Origin: Calditrichia bacterium
GTDB taxonomy: Bacteria > Calditrichota > Calditrichia > RBG-13-44-9 > J075
Length of the DNA: 64,000 nucleotides
Reading direction: 5' to 3'
Assembly (NCBI GenBank): GCA_028284905.1
Contig: JANQQU010000086.1
Span: forward strand, 39,788-103,787
The stretch's first letter is position 1; each line of letters begins with the position of its first letter. The position numbers were made by a program, and so were the translations under genes. Positions 4,161-19,984 of the stretch are shown here, in pieces. The notes under the pieces are model-generated. The model was not told the origin of the DNA, did no database searches, and saw only the letters and a list, made by a program, of their open reading frames with translations.

Positions 4161-5518
4161 GTTCACACGCACCTAATGTGAATGCTGAAAATGCCCCGGA
4201 GCGAGACCAGACTTATGCTTATAATTACAAAGAGCAGATGGAACAGGATGTTTTCGCCGCCATCAGCAAACCTAAGCCTATGTTTTTTGTTGCCCTGTTG
4301 ATTTCACTCGGATGTGTTGGGATCGGCGCTTACAGTTGGACGCAGCAGATTGTATATGGACTTGGAGAGGCCGGTATTACCAACCCGGTCGGCTGGGGGG
4401 TCTACATTACAGACTTCGTGTTCTGGGTCGGTATCGCTCACTCTGGTACCTTAATCTCGGCAATCCTTTTTCTGTTCCGGGCTCAGTTCCGTAATCGCTT
4501 TAACCGTACCGCGGAAGCAATGACCGTCTTTGCGGTTTTGACGGCGGGTTTATTCCCGTTGATTCACCTCGGGCGTGTCTGGTTTGCCTACTGGCTATTC
4601 CCTTATCCCAATCAGCGCCTGCTCTGGGTAAACTTTAAATCGCCGCTGGTCTGGGACGTTTTCGCGGTAAGTACCTACCTGACTGTGAGTGTGGTATTCT
4701 GGTATATCGGCCTGGTGCCGGACCTTGCCATTGCCCGCCGCATCAAGGAAAGTAAACTGCAGAAGACGATTTATGGTATCTTCTCCCTTGGATGGACCGG
4801 TACTTTTAAAGAATGGCAGCATTATAATCAGTTATACAAATTCCTGGCTGCACTGGCAACCCCGCTGGTATTATCGGTTCACTCCGTTGTATCCTGGGAC
4901 TTTGCGATGGGCGTTGTTTACGGTTGGCATACAACTATTTTTGCACCCTACTTCGTTGCAGGTGCGATCTTCTCCGGCTGTGCGATGGTAATCACCCTGA
5001 TGGTGCCGATGCGGAAGATCTTCAGTCTGGAAAAATATATTACCGTTGATGACTTCGAAAAACTGGCCAAGTTATTAATGTTAACGGGGCTAATCGTCTC
5101 CTATGCATACATCATCGAGCTGGCATTGGCGATGTATGTCGGGCATGGTAATATCTATGAATATGAACAGTTCATGTATCGTATGACCGGGGATTATGCC
5201 TGGGCTTATTGGATAATGATCGGCTGTAACGTCATATCGCCACTAGCCCTCTTTATCCGGGGATTAAGGAGGAACCTGCTCTTTCTCTTCTTCTTGTCGA
5301 TCCCGATCAATATCGGTATGTGGTTCGAACGTTTTAACATTATCGTGATTTCACTGGCGAAAGACTTTGATCCTTATTCCTTCGGCTATTATACACCGTC
5401 GATGATCGAATGGGGCATCACGATTGGTAGTTTTGGATGGTTCTTCACCTTCTTCTTGTTATTCACTAAAACAATTCCGGTTATCCCTGTAACCGAGTTG
5501 AAGGAGGAAGTCGAATAA
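4157..5518 (+). CDS. actC: Alternative complex III subunit ActC, NrfD-like quinol-binding membrane protein
   Basis: This 453-residue integral membrane protein has about ten hydrophobic segments and a polar cytoplasmic N-terminus of about 40 residues. It belongs to the NrfD/PsrC family. In alternative complex III, ActC holds the quinol-oxidising site close to the Fe-S domain of ActB. Conserved-looking polar residues within membrane segments include the HSGTLISA stretch and the SVVSWDFAMG stretch. The start overlaps the actB stop (ATGA) with an AAGGAGG Shine-Dalgarno sequence upstream, and the end overlaps actD by one base (TAATG). The length is typical of the family. Confidence 0.93.
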   Translation: MSSHAPNVNAENAPERDQTYAYNYKEQMEQDVFAAISKPKPMFFVALLISLGCVGIGAYSWTQQIVYGLGEAGITNPVGWGVYITDFVFWVGIAHSGTLISAILFLFRAQFRNRFNRTAEAMTVFAVLTAGLFPLIHLGRVWFAYWLFPYPNQRLLWVNFKSPLVWDVFAVSTYLTVSVVFWYIGLVPDLAIARRIKESKLQKTIYGIFSLGWTGTFKEWQHYNQLYKFLAALATPLVLSVHSVVSWDFAMGVVYGWHTTIFAPYFVAGAIFSGCAMVITLMVPMRKIFSLEKYITVDDFEKLAKLLMLTGLIVSYAYIIELALAMYVGHGNIYEYEQFMYRMTGDYAWAYWIMIGCNVISPLALFIRGLRRNLLFLFFLSIPINIGMWFERFNIIVISLAKDFDPYSFGYYTPSMIEWGITIGSFGWFFTFFLLFTKTIPVIPVTELKEEVE

Positions 5519-5949
5519 TGGAATACAGATTTAAGAACAAAGCGGAATTCATGGAAAAACTGGAAGCGTTGCTGGAAAGCGGCATCAATCCGGATGACAT
5601 GAAAATAGTGATCCCCAATCCCGATCATGATATTGAGCATCTCGTCGAGCATTACAAGTCGCCGAGTAAGCTGAAATATTTTACCCTGATTGGCGGGTTA
5701 ACCGGTTGTTTCACTGGTTTCTTTATTACTGCCTGGACCTCTCTGGACTGGGAATTGGTTACCGGTGGAAAGCCATTCTTATCCTGGCCGGCTTACATCG
5801 TTATCGCATTCGAATTAACGATTCTGCTGGGAGCGCTCAGTTCCTTTGCCGGATTACTTATTCTGGGCAAATTGCCCCAATTCAGCAAAATGCTGAATCC
5901 CGAAAATTATGGAAATGAGTTTGTAATTATTACCGAAGACGAGGAATAG
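5518..5949 (+). CDS. actD: Alternative complex III subunit ActD (DUF3341)
   Basis: This 143-residue protein has a soluble N-terminal region of about 60 residues and a helical hairpin of two membrane segments, with the conserved-looking SLDWELVTGGKPFLSWP connection between them. This is the hallmark layout of ActD (DUF3341), a structural membrane subunit of alternative complex III. It is shorter than many homologues, with almost nothing after the second helix but a 30-residue tail. It starts within the actC stop codon and ends two bases before actF, so the whole set is clearly one operon. Unlike in most act operons, no small cytochrome gene follows it. Confidence 0.88.
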   Translation: MEYRFKNKAEFMEKLEALLESGINPDDMKIVIPNPDHDIEHLVEHYKSPSKLKYFTLIGGLTGCFTGFFITAWTSLDWELVTGGKPFLSWPAYIVIAFELTILLGALSSFAGLLILGKLPQFSKMLNPENYGNEFVIITEDEE

Positions 5950-5951
5950 CG

Positions 5952-7004
5952 ATGTTTCCAAAGATGCAAGTACTGATCGCTTTTTTAGCCGGCGCTGTAG
6001 TGATTGGCGGACTGGAACTGACCTTCGAAGGCGGCTCTCTGCTATATTGCATGCTTTTCTTTGCTGCCGTGTCCATGGGCCCAATTGCTGTTGTTGCGGG
6101 TGCGGACATTTCCGGTGGAAAATGGATAAAACCTTACAAAGAAACCATGTTCAGCGTGCGTCACATGATCCTGTTTGTGCTGATTCTTTTTCTGGTATTC
6201 ATCGGCTTAAAGCGTCATGAGCTGATTTATTTCTGGGCGGAAGAAGGTACTGAGTTTCATCATACCTGGCTGGAAAAGAACTTTTATATTCTGAGAAATG
6301 TGCTGTTGCTGGCAATTTCCTGGGTAGTTGCAAATGTTTATGCGAAAGCTTCCCTGCAGGAAAAAGACAGTAAAGCGTTCTGGGCAATCATGTGGGTGTT
6401 CTCCTTTGTTATTACACAAACAATTATTGCCTTTGATTGGGTAATGTCTCTGGAATTCCCCTGGATTAGCACCCTGTTCGGCGCATATTTTTTTGTAGAA
6501 GCCTTTTACTGTGGTTTGGCATTCGCCGCCATTTATACCAGTCTGCGTTACCAGCATCTGCTGGAAGTACACGACGAAAAAACATTTAAGAAATCCATGA
6601 TGGACATGATGACCATGTTCTTCGGATTCAGCATCTTCTGGGCATATCAGTTCTTCTCACAATATATTGTTATCTGGTATGGTAATATCCCGGAAGAGGT
6701 ATCCTACTTTACCCGCCGCCTCGATGAGTTTGGCGGATGGCTGTACATTATTCCGGTGATTCTCTTCGTAACGCCTTTCTGGATTCTGATCTCCCGGAAG
6801 ATGAAAGCGAATCCGAAAGTCATTATCTGGGTTGGATTACTGGTGTGGGCAGGTATTCTGGTAGAGCGTTTCTTTATGTTGGGCACACATCATGATATTC
6901 ATCTTAGCCCGATTATCACAACAGCCGAAGTATTGGTCGCTGCCGGTGTATTCTTCTGGGTCGTAAAGAATCAGGATGATACTGCTTTGAGAACCGACCC
7001 GTAA
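5952..7004 (+). CDS. actF: Alternative complex III subunit ActF, second NrfD-like membrane subunit
   Basis: This 350-residue membrane protein has about ten hydrophobic segments and belongs to the ActF branch of NrfD-like proteins. The ITQTIIAFDWVMSLE stretch, the FFSQYIVIWYGNIPEE stretch and the ERFFMLG stretch resemble those of ActF in Rhodothermus and Bacteroidota complexes. ActF is proposed to help with quinone chemistry or proton translocation. It begins two bases after actD and is the last gene of the operon, with a strong terminator 27 bases downstream. It is somewhat shorter than typical ActF (about 400 residues), so the N-terminus may be reduced. Confidence 0.88.
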   Translation: MFPKMQVLIAFLAGAVVIGGLELTFEGGSLLYCMLFFAAVSMGPIAVVAGADISGGKWIKPYKETMFSVRHMILFVLILFLVFIGLKRHELIYFWAEEGTEFHHTWLEKNFYILRNVLLLAISWVVANVYAKASLQEKDSKAFWAIMWVFSFVITQTIIAFDWVMSLEFPWISTLFGAYFFVEAFYCGLAFAAIYTSLRYQHLLEVHDEKTFKKSMMDMMTMFFGFSIFWAYQFFSQYIVIWYGNIPEEVSYFTRRLDEFGGWLYIIPVILFVTPFWILISRKMKANPKVIIWVGLLVWAGILVERFFMLGTHHDIHLSPIITTAEVLVAAGVFFWVVKNQDDTALRTDP

Positions 7005-7729: not shown

Positions 7730-8941
7730 ATGGATGCCAGTCGGCAGGAAAAGTTAGCGGATAAATTCCGCGGATCGCAATTAACGGGTAGATTAGCAAT
7801 TAGTCACCTGATTGTTATTATGCTGATCGCGGGAATACTCCTGATCTTCTATCCAATTGAGTGGGTGCTGCAGTGGGCCGGGCTCGCCGGATTATTTCTC
7901 ATCATTGAATTACGCCAATTTTATATTGCCGTACGGGCAATGGCAGTGCCGCCGGAAAAGATTGGAGTTGCAAATACGATCACCCTTTCCCGGGGAATCT
8001 TGATTGCATTACTCGGCGGCATGCTGATATTTCCGGAAATCGGTACTGCTTTACAAGTTGCCGTAGGCGTCGCCTATTCGCTTGCGGCAATTGCAGACTT
8101 TGTCGATGGATTTGTTGCCCGCAAGCTCGGGGAAACTTCTCCGCTAGGGGAGAAGCTGGATGGGGATTTTGATGCATTAGGCATTGCTATTACGCCGCTG
8201 CTCGGCATTAAGCTGGGACAATTGCCCTGGCTATATCTTCTGGTAGGTGTTGCATATTATCTCTTCCTGTTTGGATTGTATTATCGCCGCAAAAATGGAA
8301 AGCCGATTCAGGATTTAGTGGAAAGCCAATTCCGGAGAACTATCGCCGGTTTTCAGATGGGTTTTTTAGCGGTGATCCTCTATCCGGTTTATGGACCGCC
8401 GGAAACGATTCTCGCTGCATATATCTTCATGACGCCATTTTTAGCGATGTTTCTTTTCGACTGGCTCTGTGTCAGTGGTCGTATTAATCCGGAGAACGCA
8501 CGCTATCAGCAATTTGCAGGAAAAGCCGAAAAGTTATTTTTCCACTGGCTGCCCCTTCTTTTTCGAATTGTAATTATTTTTATCGTTATTACGCCAGCTT
8601 TCAGTAAATTAATCAGGTATCCGGAAGCCGTTGCGACGTTCAGCGGGCTGGGCGTACCCGGAGCCAAATGGATGGTCGGCCTTGTCGGCTTGTTGGAAGT
8701 GCTCTCGCTGTTGATGATTTTGCTCGGCATTGCCGGACGCTATGCCGCTTTTTGCCTGATGTTTATTATGGGCGCAGCGATCAACTATGCGGGGCTCGAT
8801 TGGCAGAATGGTGCAGTGCTGTTTTCAGCGATTTATATTGAAATGTTCGATACCGGCCGCTACTCTCTGGGATTTTCCGGAGCAGCTGTTTTTACTGACC
8901 GACTGGGTAAACGATCCCGGAAGAAAATAGAAACCTTGTAA
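7730..8941 (+). CDS. CDP-alcohol phosphatidyltransferase with DoxX-like C-terminal domain
   Basis: This 403-residue membrane protein carries the full CDP-alcohol phosphotransferase signature: D123, D126, G127, A130, R131, G140, D144 and D148, with exact spacing DxxDGxxAR-x8-GxxxDxxxD. This family uses the aspartates with a divalent metal to join a CDP-linked lipid or alcohol to an acceptor hydroxyl. After about residue 265 the protein continues into a second set of four hydrophobic segments resembling the DoxX/DoxD fold, making it roughly twice the usual family length. It is the first gene of a + strand run that includes a flippase-like protein, a reductase, a pterin synthase homologue, a glycosyltransferase and a methyltransferase, so its acceptor may be an unusual lipid head group. 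Substrate unknown. Confidence 0.85.
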   Translation: MDASRQEKLADKFRGSQLTGRLAISHLIVIMLIAGILLIFYPIEWVLQWAGLAGLFLIIELRQFYIAVRAMAVPPEKIGVANTITLSRGILIALLGGMLIFPEIGTALQVAVGVAYSLAAIADFVDGFVARKLGETSPLGEKLDGDFDALGIAITPLLGIKLGQLPWLYLLVGVAYYLFLFGLYYRRKNGKPIQDLVESQFRRTIAGFQMGFLAVILYPVYGPPETILAAYIFMTPFLAMFLFDWLCVSGRINPENARYQQFAGKAEKLFFHWLPLLFRIVIIFIVITPAFSKLIRYPEAVATFSGLGVPGAKWMVGLVGLLEVLSLLMILLGIAGRYAAFCLMFIMGAAINYAGLDWQNGAVLFSAIYIEMFDTGRYSLGFSGAAVFTDRLGKRSRKKIETL

Positions 8942-9017
8942 TCTTTAGCGAATCGATCTGAAGGAAAGTCGAATTAAGAAGTATGATAGTGCTAAACATG
9001 TTATGCTTTTCAATCTT

Positions 9018-9125
9018 GTCATTGCGAGGCGTTTTTTGCCGAAGCAATCTCAAAAGTGCAAGGAGCATGGAGATCGCTTCGTCGCTGCCCCGTAGGGATC
9101 CCTTTGGGGCACTCCTCGCGATGAC
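9018..9125. repeat. Dispersed palindromic repeat (GTCATTGCGAGG family)
   Basis: The element begins with GTCATTGCGAGG and ends with its near-complement CCTCGCGATGAC (one mismatch). Inside, GAAGCAATCTC (9041-9051) is mirrored by GAGATCGCTTC (9070-9080), again with one mismatch. The same left half recurs at 63947. Elements of this kind are scattered between genes in many bacterial genomes. It fills most of the 243-base gap between two cluster genes. Confidence 0.8.
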
Positions 9126-9184
9126 AGTTATCAGCTTGCTTCTTTAGCACTATCTCAAATATTTTTCAGCGAAACGAGGCATGA

Positions 9185-10231
9185 ATGAATTTGCCGAAAG
9201 AAATTAGTAGGCACTTATTGCAGCGCTGGCCGGCGTTATTGCTGGTTGGTGTGATGCTCTATTTTTTTGTAAATGCGATATCCAGTGTGGATTTAGGAGA
9301 AGTCGCTAATATTCTGACGGGTTTGTTATGGTGGCAAGTAGCGATACTTATCGCAATCAACTTTTTTATCACCATTGCGCTAAGCGGCAGATGGTGGTGG
9401 ATTCTGAAAAAGATGGAGCAGCAAGTTTCCTTTATATCGATTTACACCTGTCGACTCGCGGCTTTTGCCTTTAGCTATTTATCACCGGGCGCCCACTTTG
9501 GCGGTGAACCGCTCCAGGTGCTTTGGCTGCAACAAAAGCATAATATTCGGCCAGCTGTAAGTGCAGGTAGTATTCTGATCGATCGCAGTTTTGTATTTGT
9601 CTTTAACCTGGTTGTATTACTGGCAGCAGCCGGCGGCATAATATTGCTTCGCCCCAATCCCGGAATAACTCAAGTGAGTGCACTAACAGCCATTTTCCTT
9701 GCGATTGTTGTATTTGCAGCGCTGCTCTTTCTTGCCCTGGATCGCCGGCAGCGATTTGCTAATTTGCTGCTGGAAACTTTGCAACGCTGGTCGGATATCA
9801 ACTGGGTTGGTAAGCTTGTCGCGGCGATAGATAAATTCAAACAGGAAATGAATGCAGCGCTGCGAAGGCGTTCCTTGATTTTAATCAGCGGGGGCATCAT
9901 TTCCTGTATTGGCTGGCTGCTGATGGCATTGGAGTTTGGCCTTGCACTGCATTTTCTCGATGGGCAGGTTTCCTTCAATCAAGGCGTTATCGCTTTTGCA
10001 TTTGCCCGAGCGGCAAATTGGGTACCGGTACCGGCAGCGGTCGGCGCATTAGAAAGCGGGCAAACCCTGGCGTTTAACATTGGTGGCACAGAGCTGGCTA
10101 TAGCAGTGGCTTTAACAGCGCTAATTCGCTGCAGGGATTTAGTTCTTGTCCTGATCGGCATTGCCAGCAGTGCCGGATTTTATAAGCATACAACTTCCGA
10201 ATCGGATAACAGAGGACAAGTGGCTGTATGA
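9185..10231 (+). CDS. LPG-synthase-type transmembrane protein (UPF0104 family)
   Basis: This 348-residue integral membrane protein has about eight hydrophobic segments. It belongs to the lysylphosphatidylglycerol-synthase transmembrane family (the flippase half of MprF, without the aminoacyltransferase half). The SPGAHFGGEPLQ stretch followed by GSILIDRSF is typical of the family. Stand-alone members are thought to flip or handle lipids and often sit beside glycolipid or phospholipid biosynthesis genes. It lies after the CDP-alcohol phosphatidyltransferase, separated by a repeat, and overlaps the next gene by four bases (ATGA), linking it to the reductase. A role in moving the cluster's product across the membrane is inference. 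Confidence 0.83.
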   Translation: MNLPKEISRHLLQRWPALLLVGVMLYFFVNAISSVDLGEVANILTGLLWWQVAILIAINFFITIALSGRWWWILKKMEQQVSFISIYTCRLAAFAFSYLSPGAHFGGEPLQVLWLQQKHNIRPAVSAGSILIDRSFVFVFNLVVLLAAAGGIILLRPNPGITQVSALTAIFLAIVVFAALLFLALDRRQRFANLLLETLQRWSDINWVGKLVAAIDKFKQEMNAALRRRSLILISGGIISCIGWLLMALEFGLALHFLDGQVSFNQGVIAFAFARAANWVPVPAAVGALESGQTLAFNIGGTELAIAVALTALIRCRDLVLVLIGIASSAGFYKHTTSESDNRGQVAV

Positions 10232-10977
10232 TGTTCCCGGTAAAGGCGTTCGTTGGGGAAAAGGAGATCATGGGGGAAATATCCGAGCGCATCGACAATG
10301 CTACACGTTTTCTGCATGAAAAAGAACGTCCCTACATCACCCTTACTTATGCGCAGGCGCTGGATGGCAGTATTGCCGGTAAAAGGGGAGAACCACTCAC
10401 TATCAGTTGCCCGGAAACCCTGGTGCTTGCACATCAATTGCGAGCCTGGCACGATGCAATTCTGGTTGGCATCGGCACCGTCTTATCAGATAACCCCCGC
10501 TTAACGGTTCGGCTGGTGCAGGGCGCAAGTCCGCAGCCGGTTGTCGTGGACAGTCGATTGCGTTTTCCGCGGGACGCGCATCTCTTGGACAATGAACAAA
10601 CTCCCTGGATCGCCACCACGACCACAGCTCCGGAAGCACACCTGTTGGGGCTAAAAGATGCTGGTGCCCGTATTCTCCAAATCCAAAGTTGTTCGGAGGG
10701 CCTGGTGGACTTTCAGGCATTGTTTAAAAAATTGGGAAGGCTGGGGGTTCGGAGCATAATGGTCGAAGGAGGCGCACGGGTAATTAGCCGTTTATTACAG
10801 CTAGGGTTGGTCGACCAGATCGTGATTACCATCGCCCCGCTGATGATCGGGGGATTGAGAGCAATTGACCCGATTGCCTGCCAAACCGCTGAAAATATTG
10901 CGATCACTTTTGACAATCTTCATTACGGACAATTCGGGATGGATATTGTGCTGCGCGGCGATTTAAAACAGGAATGA
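10228..10977 (+). CDS. RibD C-terminal-domain reductase (DHFR-fold)
   Basis: This 249-residue protein consists of a RibD_C/DHFR-like NADPH-dependent reductase domain alone, without the RibD deaminase. Family features are ITLTYAQALDGSIAG, WHDAILVGIGTVLSDNP, VVVDSRLRFP and the IMVEGGARV cofactor-binding segment. Relatives reduce the ribosylamino side chain of diaminopyrimidine intermediates in riboflavin and archaeal (methano)pterin synthesis. No ribA, ribE or ribH lies nearby, so a dedicated role in this cluster seems more likely than riboflavin synthesis. The start at 10228 overlaps the preceding gene by four bases; an ATG at 10270 is an alternative, and the first 30 residues are not conserved-looking. 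It overlaps the dehydrogenase gene by four bases. Confidence 0.85.
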   Translation: MMFPVKAFVGEKEIMGEISERIDNATRFLHEKERPYITLTYAQALDGSIAGKRGEPLTISCPETLVLAHQLRAWHDAILVGIGTVLSDNPRLTVRLVQGASPQPVVVDSRLRFPRDAHLLDNEQTPWIATTTTAPEAHLLGLKDAGARILQIQSCSEGLVDFQALFKKLGRLGVRSIMVEGGARVISRLLQLGLVDQIVITIAPLMIGGLRAIDPIACQTAENIAITFDNLHYGQFGMDIVLRGDLKQE

Positions 10978-12002
10978 TAATGGTCAACGAAGCTTTGTTC
11001 TTTAACGGGGATTCAACAGTCTCGTTAAAATCAGAAGAATTGCGCCCGTTAAAGCCGGGGGAAATGCGGATTCAAGCATTGTATTCTGCAATCAGTGCCG
11101 GTACAGAGCTCTTACTCTATCGTGGCCAAATTCCTGCCGGTATGTCCCTTGATGCTGCTTTTCCCGATGCCCGGGAAAAAATTGCCTATCCTGTTAAATA
11201 TGGCTACTCGATGGTCGGTGAAGTCGTGGAAACCGCTTCTGATCTGACTGCCTGGATGGGAAAGAGAATATTTGCATTCCATTCCCACGAACGATGCTTC
11301 ATAACAACCCCGGCGCAGGTCTACCCTTTACCAGATGAGATTCCTGCGGAAATCTCTACCTTATTACCCAATATGGAAACTGCCATCAACCTTGTCATGG
11401 ATGGTCAACCGTTGATTGGGGAGGAAGTCGTTGTGCTTGGTCAGGGAATCGTTGGACTATTGACGGCGCAGCTGTTATCCCGCTTTCCATTACATCGTTT
11501 AACCGCTGCGGATCTTTATCCCAGGCGTCGAAAATTAGCGCAGAAAGCCGGTGTGGAAAATGTATTCGATCCCAGCGACGATAAAGCTGTTAGCCAACTG
11601 AAAGCTGAATTAAGGTCTGAAGAAATCCGTGGTGCAGACTTGATCTTCGAACTAAGCGGTAATCCGCACGCATTGAACCTAGCATTGTCGCTTTGTGGAT
11701 TTCACAGTCGGATCGTCGTTGGCTCCTGGTATGGAAACAAAACGGCGCCGCTAGCGCTCGGGGCAGAATTCCATCGGGATCGGGTTAAAATCATTAGCAG
11801 CCAGGTGAGCAGTTTAGCTCCGCATTTAAGCGGACGCTGGACTAAAAAAAGAAGGCTCGATCGGGCCATTCAGCATTTACAGGAAAGTGATCTCAGCTGG
11901 CTGATTACCCACCGTTTCCCTTTTGCGAAAGCGGAGGAGGCCTATCAGCTACTGGACAAGACGCCCTGGGAAGTCGGGCAGATCATTTTAACTTATGATT
12001 GA
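10974..12002 (+). CDS. Medium-chain (zinc-type) alcohol dehydrogenase family protein, BchC-like
   Basis: This 342-residue MDR-family oxidoreductase has a GroES-like N-terminal part and a Rossmann domain with VVLGQGIVGLLTAQ as the nucleotide-binding glycine motif. The catalytic-zinc Cys normally in the N-terminal domain is replaced in SAISAGTELLLYRG, a pattern that recalls BchC and other reductase-like members. Zinc chemistry is therefore doubtful. The substrate is unknown. It overlaps the reductase gene by four bases and precedes the pterin-synthase homologue by 31 bases, so all three are probably co-translated or co-transcribed. Confidence 0.83.
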   Translation: MIMVNEALFFNGDSTVSLKSEELRPLKPGEMRIQALYSAISAGTELLLYRGQIPAGMSLDAAFPDAREKIAYPVKYGYSMVGEVVETASDLTAWMGKRIFAFHSHERCFITTPAQVYPLPDEIPAEISTLLPNMETAINLVMDGQPLIGEEVVVLGQGIVGLLTAQLLSRFPLHRLTAADLYPRRRKLAQKAGVENVFDPSDDKAVSQLKAELRSEEIRGADLIFELSGNPHALNLALSLCGFHSRIVVGSWYGNKTAPLALGAEFHRDRVKIISSQVSSLAPHLSGRWTKKRRLDRAIQHLQESDLSWLITHRFPFAKAEEAYQLLDKTPWEVGQIILTYD

Positions 12003-12033
12003 TACGAACAAGCAATTCAATTGGAGATAATCA

Positions 12034-12420
12034 ATGTATACTCTGGCAGTTAAACGGGATTTCGTCGCCCAGCACTTTTTGATCGGCGGTGATTGGGGGG
12101 AAGAGAACTCCTGGCACTCTCATCATTATGCCCTGGAGGTGATTATGGAAGCGGAAAGTTTGGATAAACATGGATACCTGGTTGATATTGTTGATGTGGA
12201 AAAAGCATTGGAAGCGGTAGTCGCCTATTTTAAGGATAAAACCCTGAATGAATTACCGGAATTTGCCGGCCTTAATCCCAGTGTGGAACACTTTACGCGC
12301 ATCTGCTGCGAAAAGCTCGTTGCCGCAATCGGTCCGGCGCACCTCGCGGCAATGACGGTAAAGATCTGGGAGAATGATATCGCCTGGGCAGCATACCGCC
12401 ACGAGAACAAGAATGCTTAA
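12034..12420 (+). CDS. 6-pyruvoyl/6-carboxy-tetrahydropterin synthase homologue with Glu at the Cys position
   Basis: This 128-residue protein belongs to the PTPS/QueD family. Zinc ligands H14, H28 and H30 are visible (FVAQHF and WHSHHY). The catalytic Cys that in QueD lies four residues before the first His of HGH is replaced by Glu (E24, with E23 next to it), and HGH is HSH. NPSVEHFTR and KIWEND match the family's later motifs. A Cys-to-Glu change is known from PTPS-III enzymes that cleave dihydroneopterin triphosphate to 6-hydroxymethyl-dihydropterin, so a side-chain-cleaving activity is possible. The motif is not identical, and a new substrate is equally plausible. A GGAGATAATCA ribosome-binding region precedes the ATG. 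Confidence 0.85.
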   Translation: MYTLAVKRDFVAQHFLIGGDWGEENSWHSHHYALEVIMEAESLDKHGYLVDIVDVEKALEAVVAYFKDKTLNELPEFAGLNPSVEHFTRICCEKLVAAIGPAHLAAMTVKIWENDIAWAAYRHENKNA

Positions 12421-12425
12421 ATGCC

Positions 12426-13529
12426 ATGAAGATTGGCCTGATTATCTATGGTAGTCTTTATACTGTCTCCGGTGGATATCTATATGATCGTATGTTAGTA
12501 GAGCACCTGCGCAGCCAGGGAGATTCCGTTGAAATAATCTCCCTTCCCTGGCGAAACTATTGTCGGCACCTTGCAGATAATTTTCATTCAACGGTATTGG
12601 ATGCTGTTGCTCATAAATCATTTGATTTATTATTGCAGGATGAATTGAACCACCCGTCATTAATCCGATTCAACCAACGGCTTCAGCAGCACAAAAGCTA
12701 TCCCATCGTTTCAATCGTGCATCATTTGCGTTCGGATGAAGCGCATCCTCCCTGGCAGAATGCCATTTACCGGGCAGTTGAGCAGCGATATTTAGCAACA
12801 GTTGATGGCTTTATCTTTAACAGCCAGTCGACCCGCGAAAATACTTTCGCATTGCTGAATGAACAGCGGCCTTCAGTAGTTTGCCCGCCTGCAGCGGATC
12901 ATGTTTTTAAAAAGGAGAAGCTTTTACCGTCCAGCGAAAAGCCTCGCGATGAGGGCCCTTTTAAGCTGCTTTTCCTGGGTAATGTTATTGCCCGCAAGGG
13001 GATATTAGTCTTGCTGGAAGCTTTGCAAAAGCTGAGAAATATTGACTGGCGGCTAACAATTGCCGGAGATTTAACCGTTGATCCGAAAGTGGTAAGAAAA
13101 GCCCGGCAATTAGCTGATGCTTCCGGTATGATGCAGCGAATATCCTGGCTTGGGAAAGTGCCTGGAGATGAAATACAAACCCTCTATCGCAGTCATGATC
13201 TCTTTGTATTGCCATCCTTTTTTGAAGGATTTGGAATTGTTTACCTGGAAGCAATGGGCGCGGGGCTACCGGTGATTGCCAGTGCGGCCGGTGGAGCCGG
13301 GGATTTTGTCCGTCATGGGGAAAATGGTTTCCTTTTACCACCGGGTGATAGTGAAATGCTCTGTCAGTTCATGCGTTCTCTTGCTGTAGACCGGGAATTA
13401 CAGCGGCGCATGAGTTTGGCCGCCCGGGAGACTTACCGGAAACAACCGGGATGGGAGAATAGTATGGGAAATGCGCGGGACTTTCTATTCGAAATGATAA
13501 ATACAGGGAATAAAAATGAACACAGGTGA
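12426..13529 (+). CDS. GT4-type glycosyltransferase
   Basis: This 367-residue GT-B glycosyltransferase has a GT1/GT4 C-terminal domain. The glycine-rich N-terminus (YTVSGGYLYDR) is the acceptor-side start, LLFLGNVIARKG marks the nucleotide-sugar domain, and EGFGIVYLEAMGAGLPVIAS gives the E-x7-E retaining-enzyme motif. It follows the pterin-synthase homologue by five bases and overlaps the methyltransferase gene by 14 bases. It probably transfers a sugar to the product of the cluster; donor and acceptor cannot be deduced. Confidence 0.88.
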   Translation: MKIGLIIYGSLYTVSGGYLYDRMLVEHLRSQGDSVEIISLPWRNYCRHLADNFHSTVLDAVAHKSFDLLLQDELNHPSLIRFNQRLQQHKSYPIVSIVHHLRSDEAHPPWQNAIYRAVEQRYLATVDGFIFNSQSTRENTFALLNEQRPSVVCPPAADHVFKKEKLLPSSEKPRDEGPFKLLFLGNVIARKGILVLLEALQKLRNIDWRLTIAGDLTVDPKVVRKARQLADASGMMQRISWLGKVPGDEIQTLYRSHDLFVLPSFFEGFGIVYLEAMGAGLPVIASAAGGAGDFVRHGENGFLLPPGDSEMLCQFMRSLAVDRELQRRMSLAARETYRKQPGWENSMGNARDFLFEMINTGNKNEHR

Positions 13530-14442
13530 GTATACATATCCACGCTATCTGGCCGCGAAAAAAACGGTTGATGACCGTGCGCTGAACTCGCGTGTTTTTC
13601 AGCATGTTCAGGAATATTTGTCGGAAGAACGTGAAGAGGGCTTAAACATTTTGGAAATAGCCACTGGGATAGGCACAATGATTCCGAGAATACTTTCCCT
13701 GCCGTTAACCGGTAAAGTCTATTACCACGCTATCGATTTATCTCCGGATAACATTGCCAGTGCCCGTGAGTATTTAGCTGGCTGGGCAGCCGAAAACTGT
13801 GAAGATTTTCGCCCTTTCGGTGATAACCAATTTAAATTGAAAGTAAATGCAGCCGAGATTACAGTAAAACTGGAATGCGCGGATATCTTTAGCTGGATCG
13901 CTGATAATATGAACCTAAGGCAGTGGGATCTGTTGATTGCCAATGCTTTCCTGGATTTGATCGACCTCAATCGTCAACTGCCATTATTAGCCGATTTACT
14001 AAAGCCCGCAGGGGCATTTTATTTCACAATCAATTTTGATGGCGAGACAATTTTTCAACCGGTATCCGACCCGGCGTTTGAAAAAAAGCTGATGGATGCT
14101 TATCATAAAACCATGGATGCCCGAATCACCGCTGGCATGCCGTCTGGCGATAGTCGTACGGGAAGGCATCTCTTTACAGCTTTGCCGGCGGCTGGTTTCG
14201 ATATCCTTAGTGCAGGCAGCTCGGATTGGATCGTTTTTCCGAAAGCAGGGAAGTATGAAGCCGAGGAAGGCTATTTCCTGCATTTCATTGTGCAGACAGT
14301 AACCGGGGCTTTGCAAGAATCCAGCGTAATAGATTCCGGGCGATTGCAGCAGTGGGGGAGTGAGCGGCATCAGCAAATTAAAAACGGGCAATTGACGTAT
14401 ATTGCCCATCAACTGGATTTTTATGGTGAAAGAAACAAATAA
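13516..14442 (+). CDS. Class I SAM-dependent methyltransferase
   Basis: This 308-residue protein has a Rossmann methyltransferase core. Motif I is LNILEIATGIGTMIPRI (about residues 43-59), followed by the acidic YHAIDLSPDNIASARE motif II and the WDLLIANAFLDLIDLN motif IV region. The first 40 residues (RYLAAKKTVDDRALN) form an N-terminal helix pair. The start overlaps the glycosyltransferase gene by 14 bases. It is the last gene of the + strand cluster; a large palindromic element follows. The methyl acceptor is unknown. Confidence 0.85.
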   Translation: MNTGEYTYPRYLAAKKTVDDRALNSRVFQHVQEYLSEEREEGLNILEIATGIGTMIPRILSLPLTGKVYYHAIDLSPDNIASAREYLAGWAAENCEDFRPFGDNQFKLKVNAAEITVKLECADIFSWIADNMNLRQWDLLIANAFLDLIDLNRQLPLLADLLKPAGAFYFTINFDGETIFQPVSDPAFEKKLMDAYHKTMDARITAGMPSGDSRTGRHLFTALPAAGFDILSAGSSDWIVFPKAGKYEAEEGYFLHFIVQTVTGALQESSVIDSGRLQQWGSERHQQIKNGQLTYIAHQLDFYGERNK

Positions 14443-14524: not shown

Positions 14525-14736
14525 TTCTGTAACCCCTTCAGGGTTTGTAAAAATTATCTCAACCGTGGGGCGCGAAAAAACAACGCCCCACGGTTGAGGT
14601 CTGTTACGCCTTTGGCGTATTTTTACCGCAAAGCCCCGAAGGGAGAGCCGGTTACAGGTTTTAACCGTGGGCTGATAGTTTTTTCAGCCCACGGATAAAA
14701 CCCCCAAATAAACTTTACCCTGAAGGGGTTACAGAA
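14525..14736. repeat. 212-bp nested palindromic element with perfect 19-bp terminal inverted repeats
   Basis: TTCTGTAACCCCTTCAGGG at 14525-14543 is exactly mirrored at 14718-14736. Inside are a perfect 15-bp hairpin (14558-14572 with 14584-14598), a 6-bp hairpin (14605-14619) and an 11-bp hairpin (14665-14675 with 14684-14694). The two long hairpins share the ACCGTGGG core. No open reading frame is present. It fills the middle of a 380-base gap. It looks like a non-autonomous mobile element or a structured intergenic repeat; it could also terminate transcription of the cluster. Confidence 0.85.
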
Positions 14737-14822: not shown

Positions 14823-16043
14823 ATGAAATCTGAAAGACTATTTTTTGATAATGGCCGCGGGGAAAAGTTGGCTGCAAGGCTGGATTTACCGCTAGACGGC
14901 GCACCGCTCGCTTACGCTCTTTTTGCCCATTGTTTTACCTGTTCGAAAAACCTTAAAGCGGTGGGAAATATTAGTCAGGCATTGGTGATGGAGAAGATCG
15001 CTGTGCTCAGATTTGATTTTACCGGCTTGGGGGAAAGTGCCGGAGATTTTGCCGATACTAATTTCTCATCCAATGTTGAAGATCTTGTTGCTGCGGCAAA
15101 TTTTTTGAAAGAAAACTATGGTGGCCCGGAAATCTTGATTGGCCACTCACTTGGCGGCGCGGCGGTTTTGCAGGCTGCCGGGGAAATAGAAGCCTGCAAA
15201 GCGGTTTGCACAATTGGTGCGCCGGCAGATCCGGTTCATGTCACGCATCTGTTGGCGAGTAAACGGGCAGAAATCGAAGCCGAAGGTGAGGCGCGAGTGA
15301 TTCTTGCCGGTCGTCAATTTACAATCAAAAAGCAATTCCTTGATGATCTGGAAATGAGTGGCATGGAGCGAAAAATACATAAATTGAAACGATCTTTACT
15401 GATATTCCATTCCCCGGTTGATAACACTGTCGGAATCGAAAATGCCGGGCGGATTTATGAATTTGCCCAACATCCGAAGAGTTTTGTTTCGCTGGACCGG
15501 GCAGATCATTTGCTCAGCGACGAACGGGATTCCCGCTATGTTGGCACGGTTCTCGCCGCCTGGGCGGGCAAGTATATCGACGCTGATAAAAAAGCAGAAG
15601 CACTTTCCCTGCAGCCGGAAGTTGATAAAGTGGTTGTGCGGACAGCAGAGGGCTATTATACGGAGATTATGGCGAACGGGCATCCGCTGGTTGTCGACGA
15701 GCCGGTTTCCGTTGGTGGGACGAATTTAGGACCGTCTCCCTACGAGCTGCTCAGTGCAGCGCTGGGCGCGTGTACCACGTTGACGCTGCGCATGTATGCC
15801 AATCGCAAGCAATGGCCGGTAGATGCAATTACAGTGCGGGTGCAACATGGGAAAATTCATGCTAAAGACTGTGATGAATGCGAGACCGCCAGCGGTAAAA
15901 TAGATCAATTCCGGAAAGAAATCGAAATCAGTGGCCCCCTGGACGACACACAGCGGAACCGAATGTTGGAAATCGCCGACCGCTGCCCGGTACACCGCAC
16001 CTTACATAATGAAGTAAAGATAGAAAGCCAACTGAAGAAATGA
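14823..16043 (+). CDS. Alpha/beta hydrolase-OsmC fusion protein
   Basis: This 406-residue fusion has two parts. Residues 1-255 form a serine alpha/beta hydrolase with the GHSLGG nucleophile elbow, an HCFTCSKN oxyanion region and a late DRADHLL histidine. Residues 275-406 form an OsmC/Ohr-like peroxidase domain with its two reactive cysteines in ALGACTTLTLR and DRCPVHRTL. This two-domain architecture is known in many bacteria. The OsmC half probably reduces organic hydroperoxides and the hydrolase half may release acyl groups. It stands alone between a palindromic element and secreted-protein genes, with an ACAGGAG ribosome-binding site. Confidence 0.9.
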   Translation: MKSERLFFDNGRGEKLAARLDLPLDGAPLAYALFAHCFTCSKNLKAVGNISQALVMEKIAVLRFDFTGLGESAGDFADTNFSSNVEDLVAAANFLKENYGGPEILIGHSLGGAAVLQAAGEIEACKAVCTIGAPADPVHVTHLLASKRAEIEAEGEARVILAGRQFTIKKQFLDDLEMSGMERKIHKLKRSLLIFHSPVDNTVGIENAGRIYEFAQHPKSFVSLDRADHLLSDERDSRYVGTVLAAWAGKYIDADKKAEALSLQPEVDKVVVRTAEGYYTEIMANGHPLVVDEPVSVGGTNLGPSPYELLSAALGACTTLTLRMYANRKQWPVDAITVRVQHGKIHAKDCDECETASGKIDQFRKEIEISGPLDDTQRNRMLEIADRCPVHRTLHNEVKIESQLKK

Positions 16044-16077: not shown

Positions 16078-16275
16078 TGTTTCTCCTCCGCCTTCCCAAA
16101 CACATATAAATTGCTAATCAAAAAATAGCATATTTCATATCATGCTTTTAATCACAAGCCTTCCTGCGTGATCGCCTATTATTAAAAGAAATTCTTAATC
16201 TTTGATAGCTACTGTCAAATCTTTCAAGTTCCATTGAATTGACTGTTATTACGCTCTTTTTTGGAGGTTTTTTGC

Positions 16276-17670
16276 ATGAAGAAGCTTCATTTATGCAACA
16301 TACTCGTGGCACTTTTAATATTTAGCGCCACCCACATTTTCGCACAAGACTATGATCTGCAATTTCGTGTAGACCGCGATGACGATGTCGCTGCCGGCTT
16401 TTATGATGTTACCATACAGTTGGCAGCCAGCAGCGCCAATTTCAAAATGGGCAGCGCGAATTTGGTCTTCGATTTTAATACCGCTGCTTTAAGCGCGCCA
16501 TCAACAATTGGCCCGGGTCCGGATTCTTTGCAAATCCAGACTATTCATAACTTTAGCAATGGCGGTAAATACCAAAAAATTCGTTTGACTTCTCCGGCTT
16601 CCGGAAGGCTTTCCTTAAATATAGAGCTGAATACACCCGGTAGTGGCGATACGCTACTGCAGGCTTACACAGACGTGGCCACTGTTCGTTTTACCATCGT
16701 TAACGCGAGTGAAACAGCAGACCTGGCCTGGCGGACCAGCTCTCCCAACGCAACCATCGTGTTTGATGATACTGAATCCAGCATGGTCGCTTCGGACGAA
16801 TTAAACGGCCCGGCGACGCTTGCAAACCTTCGGGTGTTCCTCGAAGGACCGTATGTATCTGGTGGCGATTCGATGACTACTTCTTTATTACAAAATTCGG
16901 CTATACCGCTCTCCCATCCATACGGGGGCGCCCCCTGGAATTATGCTGGTACGGATACTGTAAAAGCTGTTCCGGATAGCATTGTCGATTGGCTCTTAGT
17001 CGAGCTGCGCAGCAACCAAACAACAGTATCCGCCCAACGTACTGCTTTTCTGAAAAGGGATGGCTCTATTGTGGATTTGAACGGTACTAGTCCGGTGACC
17101 TTTAATGTCGCGGACGGTTTTTATTATGTTGTGATTTATCATCGTAACCATTTGGCGATTATGACTGCAGATTCAATCTCGCTGGCCGATACGGTTAGTG
17201 CATCCGGACAATATAATTTTACCGATGCTCAGGCGAAGGCGTTTGGTGCCAGTCCCATGAAAGTTGCCGCTGATGGTAATTTTGCGCTGAAAACCGGTGA
17301 TGCTGACGGTGATGGCCAGATTCAGAATGACGATAAAAATACTAACTGGACTAATCAGGTGGGACAGTCAGGATATAGAGATGCTGATTTTAATATGAAT
17401 AACCAAGTGCAGAATGATGACAAAAACACTTATTGGACCGGAAATGTCGGTAATGGTACTCAGGTACCGGATGTAGCAACAAAAATGGCACCCGGTGGAA
17501 AAGGAGCTAGCGGCGGAGGTAATGCAGTTGTTGCAGGAGTTGGAAATGGCTCTGGGACAGACCAGGTAGTGAAAAGTAACAATAGCAAAAATCGCAAAAA
17601 AGCAAAAGTCAAAAGCGGTCGGAAGCTACGTGATTTTCCCAAAAAGAAAAAAGAAGTTGAGGATCAGTAA
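16276..17670 (+). CDS. Secreted cohesin-like protein with dockerin-like calcium repeats
   Basis: The start is set at the ATG at 16276, eight bases after a GGAGG ribosome-binding site; the frame is open a little further upstream. A signal peptide ends near HIFAQ. Next comes a beta-rich domain like cohesin or other adhesion modules (YDLQFRVDRDDD to about residue 160) and a second beta domain. Two calcium-loop repeats follow: DADGDGQIQNDDKNTNW and DADFNMNNQVQNDDKNTYW, which resemble dockerin type repeats. The C-terminus is a Gly-rich, then Lys/Arg-rich tail (KNRKKAKVK) with no sorting domain. The two next genes are also cohesin-like and do carry sorting domains, so they may bind one another at the cell surface; that is inference. 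Confidence 0.7.
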   Translation: MKKLHLCNILVALLIFSATHIFAQDYDLQFRVDRDDDVAAGFYDVTIQLAASSANFKMGSANLVFDFNTAALSAPSTIGPGPDSLQIQTIHNFSNGGKYQKIRLTSPASGRLSLNIELNTPGSGDTLLQAYTDVATVRFTIVNASETADLAWRTSSPNATIVFDDTESSMVASDELNGPATLANLRVFLEGPYVSGGDSMTTSLLQNSAIPLSHPYGGAPWNYAGTDTVKAVPDSIVDWLLVELRSNQTTVSAQRTAFLKRDGSIVDLNGTSPVTFNVADGFYYVVIYHRNHLAIMTADSISLADTVSASGQYNFTDAQAKAFGASPMKVAADGNFALKTGDADGDGQIQNDDKNTNWTNQVGQSGYRDADFNMNNQVQNDDKNTYWTGNVGNGTQVPDVATKMAPGGKGASGGGNAVVAGVGNGSGTDQVVKSNNSKNRKKAKVKSGRKLRDFPKKKKEVEDQ

Positions 17671-17831
17671 TTTCATTTCCTTGCTTAGTTTCTAATCAGG
17701 GATTATATGATACCTGTCACGATATATTCTGAATGAATATACAATATTTAGTGAAGTTATTGCGTTTTATGCTTATATTTATACTTTAAAAATAAATGAT
17801 GTAGATTCTCTGTGCATTTAAGGAGTTAATA

Positions 17832-19019
17832 ATGAAAAAAATTGTCACAAAAGTGATATTACTTCTCACACTTTTCCTGAGTAGCGCTGGCTTTTCTCAG
17901 GAGATCATTTTCACTCTTGCAAATCCCACTTTAAGTGGCGGTAGTCCTCCTACCACTTTTGAATTTGATGTGATGATTCAAGGTGATGTATCAGGCACAT
18001 TTTATGGTGATTTACTAATTTATATCGATTATAATACCGCCGCTTTTGGCACGGAAGTCGCCGCAAATTCAAATATCAATATCACTGCTGGTGGTCAAAT
18101 CGATGGGTTTATATATTCCCTGGTAGGCGGTGTTAATGGTACTGGCGCAAATGATAATGATGAAAATACATTTTCTGTGGCAATAGATTATGCGCTTGAT
18201 GGGAATACAGCTTTTGCAAATCCGCTTCCCACCTCACCAGTTCAATTGTTTAAAGTTTCACTCACAATTGATGATGATTCTCAAACTTCCGGACTAACAT
18301 TTAATGGCGGTTTAATGAGCGGTCAGCAGTATCAAGCCACAGGGACTCTTCCTGAGGATAGATATCCAAGTGTAGATACTAGTGACGACCTGGACAGCGC
18401 ATTACCGGTGGAATTAAATGTGCTGGAAGCATTGGTACAAGACGCACAAGTTGTTGTCCAGTGGTCGACCCAAAGTGAAGTAAACAACCTGGGCTTTGAA
18501 GTCTATCGTTCCACTGAGGAGAATGGTCTGTTCGACTTGATTTCTTCCTATGAAAATAATAGTGACCTGGAAGGCTCCGGAAACTCCAACACCTTGCGCG
18601 AATACAGTTATGTAGACGCACAGGCTGCCGGTGGCACCACTTACTGGTATCAAATTGCTGATGTCGATTTTGACGGTATTCGTACTTTCCACGGCCCGGT
18701 ATCGGTTGATGCGCCGGAGTTGTTGCCGGATGTGTTCAGCTTACATCAGAACTATCCCAATCCTTTTAATCCTTCTACGACAGTGCGCTACGATGTGCCT
18801 TCGAATCTGGATGGCCGCAGCCGTGTTTCCCTGGTGATTTATAACAGCCTCGGTATGAAGGTGAAAACTCTCTATAATGGCTACAAAGCTCCGGGTTTCC
18901 ACACAGAAGTGTGGGACGGCACCAATGATAATGGTGTGCGCACTGCATCTGGTATTTACTTCCTGCGTATGGTCGCTGATCGCTTTGTAAGCACGAAAAA
19001 GATGATTCTCTTGAAATAA
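17832..19019 (+). CDS. Secreted cohesin-like protein with fibronectin-like and C-terminal sorting domains
   Basis: This 395-residue protein has a signal peptide ending near SAGFSQ and a beta domain of about 170 residues resembling cohesins (SGGSPPTTFEFDVMIQG, DLLIYIDYNTAAFG). A fibronectin-like module follows (PVELNVLEALVQD to about residue 295), and then a C-terminal sorting domain with QNYPNPFNPSTTVRYDVP, SGIYFLRMVA and MILLK. Such endings direct export by a type IX-like system in Bacteroidota relatives and are common in Calditrichota. Its N-terminal domain is closely related to that of the next gene, so the pair arose by tandem duplication. An AAGGAG ribosome-binding site precedes the start. 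Confidence 0.8.
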   Translation: MKKIVTKVILLLTLFLSSAGFSQEIIFTLANPTLSGGSPPTTFEFDVMIQGDVSGTFYGDLLIYIDYNTAAFGTEVAANSNINITAGGQIDGFIYSLVGGVNGTGANDNDENTFSVAIDYALDGNTAFANPLPTSPVQLFKVSLTIDDDSQTSGLTFNGGLMSGQQYQATGTLPEDRYPSVDTSDDLDSALPVELNVLEALVQDAQVVVQWSTQSEVNNLGFEVYRSTEENGLFDLISSYENNSDLEGSGNSNTLREYSYVDAQAAGGTTYWYQIADVDFDGIRTFHGPVSVDAPELLPDVFSLHQNYPNPFNPSTTVRYDVPSNLDGRSRVSLVIYNSLGMKVKTLYNGYKAPGFHTEVWDGTNDNGVRTASGIYFLRMVADRFVSTKKMILLK

Positions 19020-19047
19020 TTTTTATACAAATATTTTAATATTTATA

Positions 19048-19083
19048 AACTGCCGGTAGTATTACTGCCGGCAGTTTTTTTTA
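19048..19083 (+). terminator. Rho-independent terminator
   Basis: A 9-bp stem (AACTGCCGG at 19048-19056 with CCGGCAGTT at 19068-19076) is followed by a run of eight or more T. It follows the first of the two paralogous secreted-protein genes. Confidence 0.9.
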
Positions 19084-19102
19084 GTATACTGAGGATGCTA
19101 AT

Positions 19103-19984
19103 ATGTCCGGAAGACGTCATTTCATTAATCATTGCCATTCTTTTCTATTCTTGCTTTTAGTAGGTTGGTCCCAAATAGTAAATGCCCAGGAAGACATCAC
19201 TTTCACTTTTTCCGATCCAGAGCTTGTCGGGGGAAGCCCACCGACGCAATTGGATTTTAATGTAATGATTCAGGGAAGCAATGGGGATACCCGTTATGGG
19301 GATATGCAGGTATATATAGAATATAACCCTGCTGTGTTTGGTAGCAATGTTGTTGAGAACGAAAAGATTAACGTAACACCTGGCAGTGCTTTGCCTTCAC
19401 CGTTTTACTCAATCGTCAATATCGTTGACAATACTGACAACATTTTCTCAATTACCCTTGATTATGTACCTGATGGTCTGACTGATTTTGCCGAAATTTT
19501 ACCGGATTCCCAAATCCAATTACTACAAATCTCGTTGGATATTTCTAATCACTCCCATTCCCCTGCCATTCGTTTTAATGAAGGATTAATGAGTGATCAG
19601 CAATTTCAGTATGATGGTAGTACATTATATGATCCGGTAGATGCCAGTGATGTGCTGGATATTGCCCTGGCGATTGGGGAGGAGACCGGGGCGATTGGCC
19701 CTTATGAAGGATTTTATCTTTCTCCGAATTATCCCAATCCGTTTAACCCGGTGACGCAAATCGTATTTCAGATTGCCGATGTCGAATTTACCTCCCTGAA
19801 AGTACATGATTTGTTAGGGCGGGAGGTTGCCACATTAATTCTTGAAAATTTATTACCCGGTAGTTACCAGACGCAATGGGATGGCCGTGATGACAGCGGA
19901 AAGCTGGTGGCCGGCGGTATGTATTTTTATCGTATGGTGAGCGGCGAGTTTTCCCAAACCCGGCGAATGATTTTACTGCGTTAA
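19103..19984 (+). CDS. Secreted cohesin-like protein with sorting domain (short paralogue)
   Basis: This 293-residue paralogue of the preceding protein shares the GGSPPTxxxFxVMIQG opening, the YIEYNPAVFG strand and the FNEGLMSDQQFQYDG segment. It lacks the fibronectin-like middle domain and passes directly to the sorting domain (SPNYPNPFNPVTQIVF, GGMYFYRMVS, MILLR). A signal peptide ends near VNAQ. The gene follows a strong terminator, so it probably has its own promoter in the short spacer. The function is unknown; the layout suggests a surface or matrix protein. Confidence 0.8.
   Translation: MSGRRHFINHCHSFLFLLLVGWSQIVNAQEDITFTFSDPELVGGSPPTQLDFNVMIQGSNGDTRYGDMQVYIEYNPAVFGSNVVENEKINVTPGSALPSPFYSIVNIVDNTDNIFSITLDYVPDGLTDFAEILPDSQIQLLQISLDISNHSHSPAIRFNEGLMSDQQFQYDGSTLYDPVDASDVLDIALAIGEETGAIGPYEGFYLSPNYPNPFNPVTQIVFQIADVEFTSLKVHDLLGREVATLILENLLPGSYQTQWDGRDDSGKLVAGGMYFYRMVSGEFSQTRRMILLR

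Follow-up and report, generated by a model that had tools for sequence, protein, structure and literature searches.

The 64,000-nucleotide stretch of DNA analyzed here (the window) comes from a Calditrichia bacterium (contig JANQQU010000086.1 of assembly GCA_028284905.1) and carries at positions 7730-14442 seven forward-strand genes, encoding a CDP-alcohol phosphatidyltransferase, a flippase-like membrane protein, a RibD_C reductase, a medium-chain dehydrogenase (MDR), a homologue of the PTPS/COG0720 family, a GT4 glycosyltransferase and a methyltransferase. Bacteria and haloarchaea both carry conserved versions of the set, which is proposed, with a probability of roughly 55%, to convert GTP through a ribityl-diaminopyrimidine phosphate intermediate into a pterin-type compound that is methylated, glycosylated and likely linked to a lipid. 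Considerably more assured is the narrower statement that the cluster is real, is conserved over two domains and has a riboflavin-type diaminopyrimidine as its most likely starting compound. The predicted product would be a sugar-bearing compound made from a diverted vitamin B2 precursor and likely anchored in the membrane, with methylation, glycosylation and lipid attachment as its presumed modifications.

An earlier note on this DNA had named these seven same-strand genes and their families from the letters alone, and both the open reading frames and the families were confirmed with Pfam and NCBIfam models. The short overlaps it described were borne out as well: the gaps between the six genes spanning 9185-14442 are -4, -4, 31, 5 and -14 bases, while the CDP-alcohol transferase gene ends 243 bases upstream of this run.

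Conservation of the gene set

Scanning of genome contigs located 265 places with PTPS relatives, the best 80 of which were studied; neighbors were counted with profile models built from these loci, using only loci with enough flank on the side concerned. The MDR gene starts at most 2.7 kb upstream of the PTPS gene in 54/67 loci, RibD_C lies within 4.5 kb upstream in 38/57, GTP cyclohydrolase II (GCH II) is nearby in 37/57, GT4 follows directly downstream in 62/74 and a methyltransferase is near in 42/65; five gammaproteobacterial loci were scored as GT4 misses because their GT4 gene sits upstream on the opposite strand. With flank ignored, the 80 loci hold GCH II in 41, RibD_C in 49, MDR in 58, GT4 in 72, the methyltransferase in 52, the CDP-alcohol transferase in 24 and the flippase in 25. 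PTPS, MDR, RibD_C, GCH II, GT4 and methyltransferase occur together in 27/80 loci, and in 11/80 the same six families are joined by both the CDP-alcohol transferase and the flippase. The loci are mostly metagenome-assembled genomes of Chloroflexota, with some Gammaproteobacteria (including two Cellvibrio records), Deltaproteobacteria/Desulfobacterales and one Binatota record.

Twenty-two of the loci have no MDR gene, and in several of these a contig end cuts the neighborhood. An MDR orthologue (265-350 bits) was found elsewhere in 13 of the 14 such genomes searched, and around these 13 split-off genes RibD_C adjoins in 11 and GCH II in eight, seven of these fused. The two modules thus co-occur even when apart, and GCH II-RibD_C-MDR on the one hand and PTPS-GT4-methyltransferase on the other behave as two modules. 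As GT4 enzymes, methyltransferases and MDR proteins are common families, envelope-polysaccharide genes might have come to lie beside stray pterin genes by chance; this explanation is barely credible and was rejected, as the gene order is conserved in several phyla and two domains, genes are fused and the split modules stay together. A mirror-tree test in which all 28 family pairs correlate (r 0.34-0.90, 0/200 shuffles as high) was given no weight because shared ancestry alone can produce such correlation.

Fourteen plasmid records have a PTPS match, of which 13 were read, a second Haloarcula marismortui record being left out. The Rhizobium match is a true QueD between queE and queC and serves as a negative control. 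The other 12 loci are nine haloarchaeal, two from Streptomyces and one from Thiodictyon, and all 12 have a dehydrogenase beside the PTPS match; GT4 is directly downstream of PTPS in 8/12, is annotated divergently upstream of it in three Haloarcula loci, and is absent from the Halobellus locus. A CDP-alcohol transferase is near PTPS in 9/12. The small membrane protein family DUF7475 recurs in 23/80 bacterial and 6/9 haloarchaeal loci (e.g., L016:13153-13509 and L128:8705-9070), three of the seven such proteins checked in Pfam passing the cut-off. The set is therefore found in other phyla and in archaea, the conservation on which the earlier note had made its proposal depend.

Certain individual loci show features of their own. 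On Haloarcula marismortui pNG700 (L139:8001-8362) the PTPS match is split into two parts and carries no gene annotation, so that the PTPS gene looks broken, while the MDR, GT4 and next genes are annotated; in Haloarcula sinaiiensis the annotation shows an intact PTPS gene. In the Thiodictyon locus a gene annotated as cytochrome b (L131:10528-11085) separates the methyltransferase gene from that for RibD_C, which would fit a membrane redox role. Five loci, L066 (4515-6209) among them, encode about 5.5 kb upstream of PTPS a large membrane protein that is LTA-synthase/sulfatase-like by eye; the one checked has no Pfam match.

Within the host's phylum, a PTPS-family match is present in 26/40 genomes searched; close ones (E <1e-30) are confined to the host and two genomes of its order (G037 and G039), the others scoring 20.8-53.8 bits. 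Of the named PTPS relatives, the nearest come from Calditrichaeota bacteria and are 76-77% identical. In a tree of 66 MDR sequences, the host, G037 and G039 form one branch (98/91) inside a larger group of Chloroflexota and Pseudomonadota.

Probable entry from GTP

The first reaction, well supported by context, would be the opening of GTP by GCH II, encoded elsewhere in the host, to 2,5-diamino-6-ribosylamino-pyrimidinone 5'-phosphate; in the haloarchaeal and Streptomyces clusters, a formyl intermediate and a creatininase-family formamidase would lead to it as well. The direct product of GCH II is the diaminopyrimidine nucleotide already freed of its formyl group. GTP cyclohydrolase III leaves that group in place, to be removed by a formamidase; in Sinorhizobium the creatininase-family protein BrbF has this role (PMC9478397). 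GTP cyclohydrolases do lie near homologous clusters, a point that the earlier note had raised: type II in 41/80 loci and type III in 3/9 haloarchaeal loci, all Haloarcula (PF05165, 272.6 bits), neither being the pterin-forming type I. GCH II and RibD_C form one gene in 22/80 loci, and Pfam shows both domains in the one checked (L061).

The zinc motif HSEC-x10-CDC is kept in 40/41 cluster GCH II copies of the 80 loci (exception L070), as is the Tyr of KxxAY (L045 not readable), which is taken here as the position of Tyr105 in Escherichia coli GCH II, a catalytic position at which Tyr has a role in this enzyme. Both Streptomyces copies have Met instead and lie beside a creatininase-family gene; SCO6655, with Met at that position, is said to give the formyl compound as product. 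Two Haloarcula loci other than the three with GTP cyclohydrolase III also hold a creatininase-family gene; in the 80 loci the sole case is L030 (72 bits, 4 kb away). Met-type and type III enzymes are found in lineages with creatininase genes in their loci, in haloarchaea not in the same locus, and the enzyme variants fit one common intermediate. The presence of GCH II in 41/80 loci, the RibD_C fusions and the non-homologous first enzymes together mean that entry via GTP-derived ribityl-diaminopyrimidine phosphate is well supported.

The window RibD_C protein (10228..10977, 249 aa; PF01872, 159.1 bits) consists of this sole domain with no deaminase domain. It passes TIGR00227 (180.2 bits, cut-off 150.15) and does not reach TIGR01508 (144.3 bits, cut-off 186.45), and its best solved relative is the reductase 2azn (111 bits), which is taken to be an archaeal enzyme working before deamination. 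The protein is predicted to reduce the ribosylaminopyrimidine phosphate to its ribityl form, a well-supported second step after which, lacking a deaminase, the 2-amino group would stay. These first two predicted reactions are the same as the early steps of riboflavin synthesis (RibA, or ArfA with ArfB/BrbF, then RibD_C or ArfC), including the archaeal and creatininase-type variants; the difference is that the window set has no deaminase, lumazine synthase or riboflavin synthase, which the host encodes elsewhere.

The host genome (8.55 Mb, 93 contigs) has a separate operon for RibD, RibE, RibBA and RibH (342.7, 220.5, 573.1 and 184.8 bits) and a second one for FolE2, QueD, QueE and QueC, in which a true QueD (105.8 bits) is flanked by QueC and QueE (L094). 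It also holds three copies of GCH II, four of RibD_C, two of PTPS and seven CDP-alcohol transferases. From the separate operons and multiple copies it follows that the window genes are paralogues with another job. Riboflavin and queuosine were rejected as roles in the host on the grounds of these operons, and an ordinary pathway to either compound that depends on the window genes, which would have undone the earlier proposal, is excluded for the host.

A related idea is that riboflavin or F420 synthesis has in this set a spare or regulated branch, with GCH II, RibD_C and PTPS supplying 5-amino-6-ribitylaminouracil for flavin or deazaflavin. GCH II and RibD_C are indeed riboflavin enzymes, and one paper places PTPS-IV proteins in archaeal F420 synthesis on unpublished data (PMC5041015), but GT4, the methyltransferase and the CDP-alcohol transferase would have no place in such a branch, which the riboflavin operon and deaminase-free reductase of the host also make improbable. 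F420 as the role is not supported, in most carriers, by CofH, which F420 synthesis requires: matches are at most 21 bits or none in 21/23 bacterial carriers, the host included (four at 19-21 bits, 17 with none), and the strong CofH-like matches are limited to G048 and G061 (358.9 and 334.1 bits). No carrier of the 23 exceeds the cut-off of 374.1, the completeness of most of these genomes being unstated. Many haloarchaea make F420, and the CofH set covered bacterial carriers; the archaeal F420 assignment of PTPS-IV is not supported by most of the bacterial carriers tested.

One host contig (C39) has a stand-alone GCH II gene adjoining two photolyase/cryptochrome-like genes (L092, 4798-8487), one of which scores 162.8 bits to deoxyribodipyrimidine photolyase, below the cut-off, while the second has no NCBIfam match at 1e-10. 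This GCH II may provide a ribityllumazine antenna.

The dehydrogenase and the PTPS homologue

In the third step, the MDR protein and the PTPS homologue would oxidize the ribityl side chain and rearrange it, with closure of the pterin ring as a likely result. The MDR protein (10974..12002, 342 aa; PF00107, 46.2 bits) is BchC-like and has GYS in place of the GHE zinc motif, a loss overlooked, like the DoxX domain of the CDP-alcohol transferase, by the earlier note; G77 and Y78 are invariant in 30 aligned sequences. A BchC function was rejected (bchC model 81.3 bits against a cut-off of 291.25). Galactitol-1-phosphate dehydrogenase (49 bits) and sorbitol dehydrogenase (27.6 bits) are among the solved relatives of the MDR protein.

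The PTPS homologue is encoded at 12034..12420 (128 aa; PF01242, 90.2 bits) and was aligned with its relatives from the 80 loci, giving 81 sequences. QueD itself has zinc ligands, a ring-holding Glu, a catalytic Cys and an Asp-His pair. His14, His28, His30 and Glu113, which align with the zinc ligands and ring-holding Glu, are conserved in 81/81; the position of the catalytic Cys is a gap and the Asp-His pair is Lys-Asp in the window protein. Glu24 and Asn25 are invariant across the alignment and Asp68 is kept in 80/81. The altered active site that had been remarked on before is thus upheld, with the zinc histidines and anchoring Glu kept and the catalytic Cys and Asp-His replaced, and this pattern of residues makes binding of a 2-amino-4-oxo pyrimidine or pterin likely and QueD chemistry unlikely. 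In the proposed step, Glu113 would hold the 2-amino-4-oxo edge and zinc the side-chain hydroxyls.

These conserved positions, together with the sugar-alcohol dehydrogenases among the MDR relatives, might suggest a GCH I-independent route to an ordinary pterin, in which the MDR enzyme oxidizes ribityl C2', the 5-amino group closes the ring and PTPS finishes a neopterin-type cofactor. However, the MDR protein has no zinc motif, the route costs a reduction and an oxidation for what GCH I makes directly, FolE2 is present in the host, and GT4, methyltransferase and CDP-alcohol transferase are left unexplained, so that this route, too, deserves little credence.

The window protein lacks the motifs of PTPS-I/QueD, PTPS-III and PTPS-IV. 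For PTPS-I/QueD, CxxxHGH has no match (the window has EENSWHSHH, with no Cys), TIGR03367 scores 43.7 bits against a cut-off of 89.25, and Pfam and NCBIfam find no QueC, QueE or QueF in the window gene set. The fold family, zinc histidines and anchoring Glu are shared with QueD; the catalytic residues are not, and the true QueD lies elsewhere in the host. PTPS-III was likewise rejected, as its motif, given as ExxHGH in PMC5041015, is not matched, with Asn three before the first His and HSH instead of HGH. The PTPS-IV signature FGPAQ, named in PMC5445326, is not in the window protein, which has WGEEN there instead; it is present in the PTPS proteins of L130, L131 and L133 (Streptomyces and Thiodictyon) and in SCO6650. 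The nearest solved structure is that of SCO6650 (3d7j, 45 bits). Because FGPAQ is absent and HxH is kept where SCO6650 has HGA, the window protein is placed by its sequence as a zinc-keeping sister group of the SCO6650 branch. In that branch (L130, L131 and L133) the second zinc histidine is lost, and the gene neighborhood is much the same.

Both Streptomyces loci with SCO6650-like proteins hold MDR, PTPS, GT4, CDP-alcohol transferase, creatininase-family and GCH II genes, and the annotated one of the two has a methyltransferase gene as well. A published neighborhood network (PMC5445326) places PF00925 and PF01872 around PTPS-IV (561 sequences) and describes PF00925 as GTP cyclohydrolase I/FolE2; the part of the paper that covers this network draws no pathway. 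In Pfam, PF00925 is GTP_cyclohydro2. Of this published neighborhood, RibD_C is in the window and GCH II only in related loci. The earlier statement that no pathway with this set has been described agrees with a literature search, which found no paper on such a pathway or on a pterin lipid, most subscription papers being outside its reach; the novelty is reduced by the PTPS-IV subfamily and its neighborhood, which are already in print, so that the finding is partly anticipated although the pathway is not.

Proposed glycosyl, methyl and lipid transfer

The best reading of the remaining genes would be a decorated, membrane-linked product. In a fourth step the GT4 enzyme (12426..13529, 367 aa; PF00534, 129.9 bits) would add a sugar and the class I S-adenosylmethionine-dependent methyltransferase (13516..14442, 308 aa) a methyl group. 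The GT4 E-x7-E motif is EGFGIVYLE in the window and is kept in 71/72. The methyltransferase belongs to a family with no curated model, whose members are 34-53% identical to the window protein and reach haloarchaea; fold comparison places it in class I, and its top hits, mostly small-molecule enzymes and headed by 3mgg, of no stated function, do not point to an acceptor.

In the fifth step, the weakest, the CDP-alcohol transferase would use CDP-diacylglycerol, or CDP-archaeol in haloarchaea, to put a lipid on the phosphoribityl end, and the flippase-like protein (LPG_synthase_TM; 9185..10231, 348 aa; PF03706, 105.3 bits; TIGR00374, 67.5 bits) would carry the product across the membrane to give a membrane-bound, redox- or light-active glycolipid. 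The transferase (7730..8941, 403 aa) has a CDP-alcohol phosphatidyltransferase domain (PF01066, 56.6 bits) and a C-terminal DoxX domain (PF07681, 35.5 bits). Its catalytic motif DFVDGFVARKLGETSPLGEKLDGDFD (DxxDGxxAR-x8-GxxxDxxxD) is complete in the window and in 31/31 cluster homologues of more than 200 aa, and it scores 20.3 bits against the phosphatidylinositol-phosphate synthase model (cut-off 170). A window-type relative is encoded elsewhere in 11/20 genomes searched from the 56 loci with no CDP-alcohol transferase gene; in the host's phylum it is present in 1/3 carriers and 0/37 non-carriers, an imperfect control as this phylum differs from that of most carriers. Given this distribution, the lipid step likely holds for many carriers, the host included, but not for all.

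The same entry could instead lead to a soluble methylated pterin glycoside of the kind made by cyanobacteria and Chlorobium; the CDP-alcohol transferase and flippase would then be no more than neighbors that serve ordinary lipids. The tight unit is PTPS-GT4-methyltransferase with MDR, and in the loci with 6 kb on both sides the transferase lies within 10 kb of PTPS in only 15/39 and the flippase in 14/39. GT4-related enzymes that act on a pterin are known, the solved tetrahydrobiopterin glucosyltransferases 5ze7 and 9v0l being relatives of the window GT4 (44.8 and 36.4 bits), and bacterial pterin glycosides exist, as two papers report (PMC13259868; PMC5683033). Several other GT4 chains are nearer to the window enzyme, however (best 64.7 bits), and 9/12 plasmid loci, spread over haloarchaea, Streptomyces and Thiodictyon, have a CDP-alcohol transferase close to the set; the window type of this enzyme is encoded elsewhere in 11/20 further carriers and in 0/37 non-carriers of the host's phylum. 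Bacterial pterin glycosides start from GTP cyclohydrolase I and biopterin, and to our knowledge no CDP-alcohol transferase or flippase takes part in their synthesis. A soluble glycoside is a possible but doubtful outcome. The lipid-linked product finds an analogy, and no closer likeness, in the phosphatidylinositol mannosides, whose headgroup is made by a CDP-alcohol transferase (PIP synthase) and glycosylated by a GT4 enzyme (PimA; chain 41.7 bits to the window GT4); here the headgroup would be a ribityl-pyrimidine or pterin.

Several observations weigh against a lipid-linked pterin-type product or against the evidence for its pathway. The 80 loci are not independent, Chloroflexota metagenome-assembled genomes prevailing; one genome searched (G052) has no MDR orthologue, and MDR stands apart from RibD_C in 2/13 regions of the split genomes. 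In the host, the GCH II gene lies outside the window, the three copies being on other contigs, and none is tied by context to the seven-gene set; the two stand-alone copies (C85 and C39) have no cluster genes in the 16 kb around each. Profile searches of all window open reading frames of at least 50 aa gave no homologue of cluster-type GTP cyclohydrolase II or III, creatininase or DUF7475, and DUF7475 is absent from the whole host genome, though common to bacterial and haloarchaeal loci. GTP cyclohydrolase III and a creatininase gene do not occur together in any haloarchaeal locus read. Reduction of the ribose followed by its re-oxidation looks wasteful, and similarity of the GT4 enzyme to many glycosyltransferases does not fix its acceptor. 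As for the lipid step, the CDP-alcohol transferase is absent near PTPS in 24/39 loci and the flippase in 25/39, no window-type transferase is present in 9/20 genomes searched or in G037 and G039, and the haloarchaeal, Streptomyces and Thiodictyon transferases checked in Pfam have no DoxX domain.

The earlier view of one dedicated pathway joining pyrimidine or pterin chemistry to sugar, methyl and lipid transfer is thus supported in part, by the conserved set and the separate riboflavin and queuosine operons, whereas the product itself is drawn by inference. In its most specific form, which can be offered only tentatively, the pathway would add to riboflavin and F420 a third end product of the GTP-derived diaminopyrimidine, namely a phospholipid with a methylated, glycosylated ribityl-pterin or -pyrimidine headgroup, flipped to act as a membrane-bound redox or light-absorbing cofactor, with non-homologous first enzymes in two domains and a rebuilt PTPS that closes or reshapes the ring. 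If true, a central vitamin pathway would gain a branch, and Bacteria and Archaea would share a new class of membrane molecule, hidden so far under names such as '6-carboxytetrahydropterin synthase' and 'zinc-binding alcohol dehydrogenase'. The role of PTPS-IV-like proteins becomes a testable question, for which the natural fusion genes and the carriers Cellvibrio, Haloarcula and Streptomyces are laboratory entry points.

Surroundings of the cluster

A terminator-like hairpin with a T run lies 3' of the methyltransferase gene (14605..14619, forward strand; consensus match only), a weak call because the region holds 18 such sites where shuffled sequence would give 8.6. A promoter scan was uninformative (16 found against 11.0 expected, standard deviation 3.8). 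On the 5' side of the cluster, same-strand genes at 1275-7004 encode, by eye, subunits of a respiratory alternative complex III. An alpha/beta hydrolase fused to an OsmC domain is encoded at 14823-16043, starting 380 bases after the cluster, followed at 16261-19984 by three secreted-looking proteins, two of which have, by eye, NYPNPFNP in a C-terminal sorting-type region.

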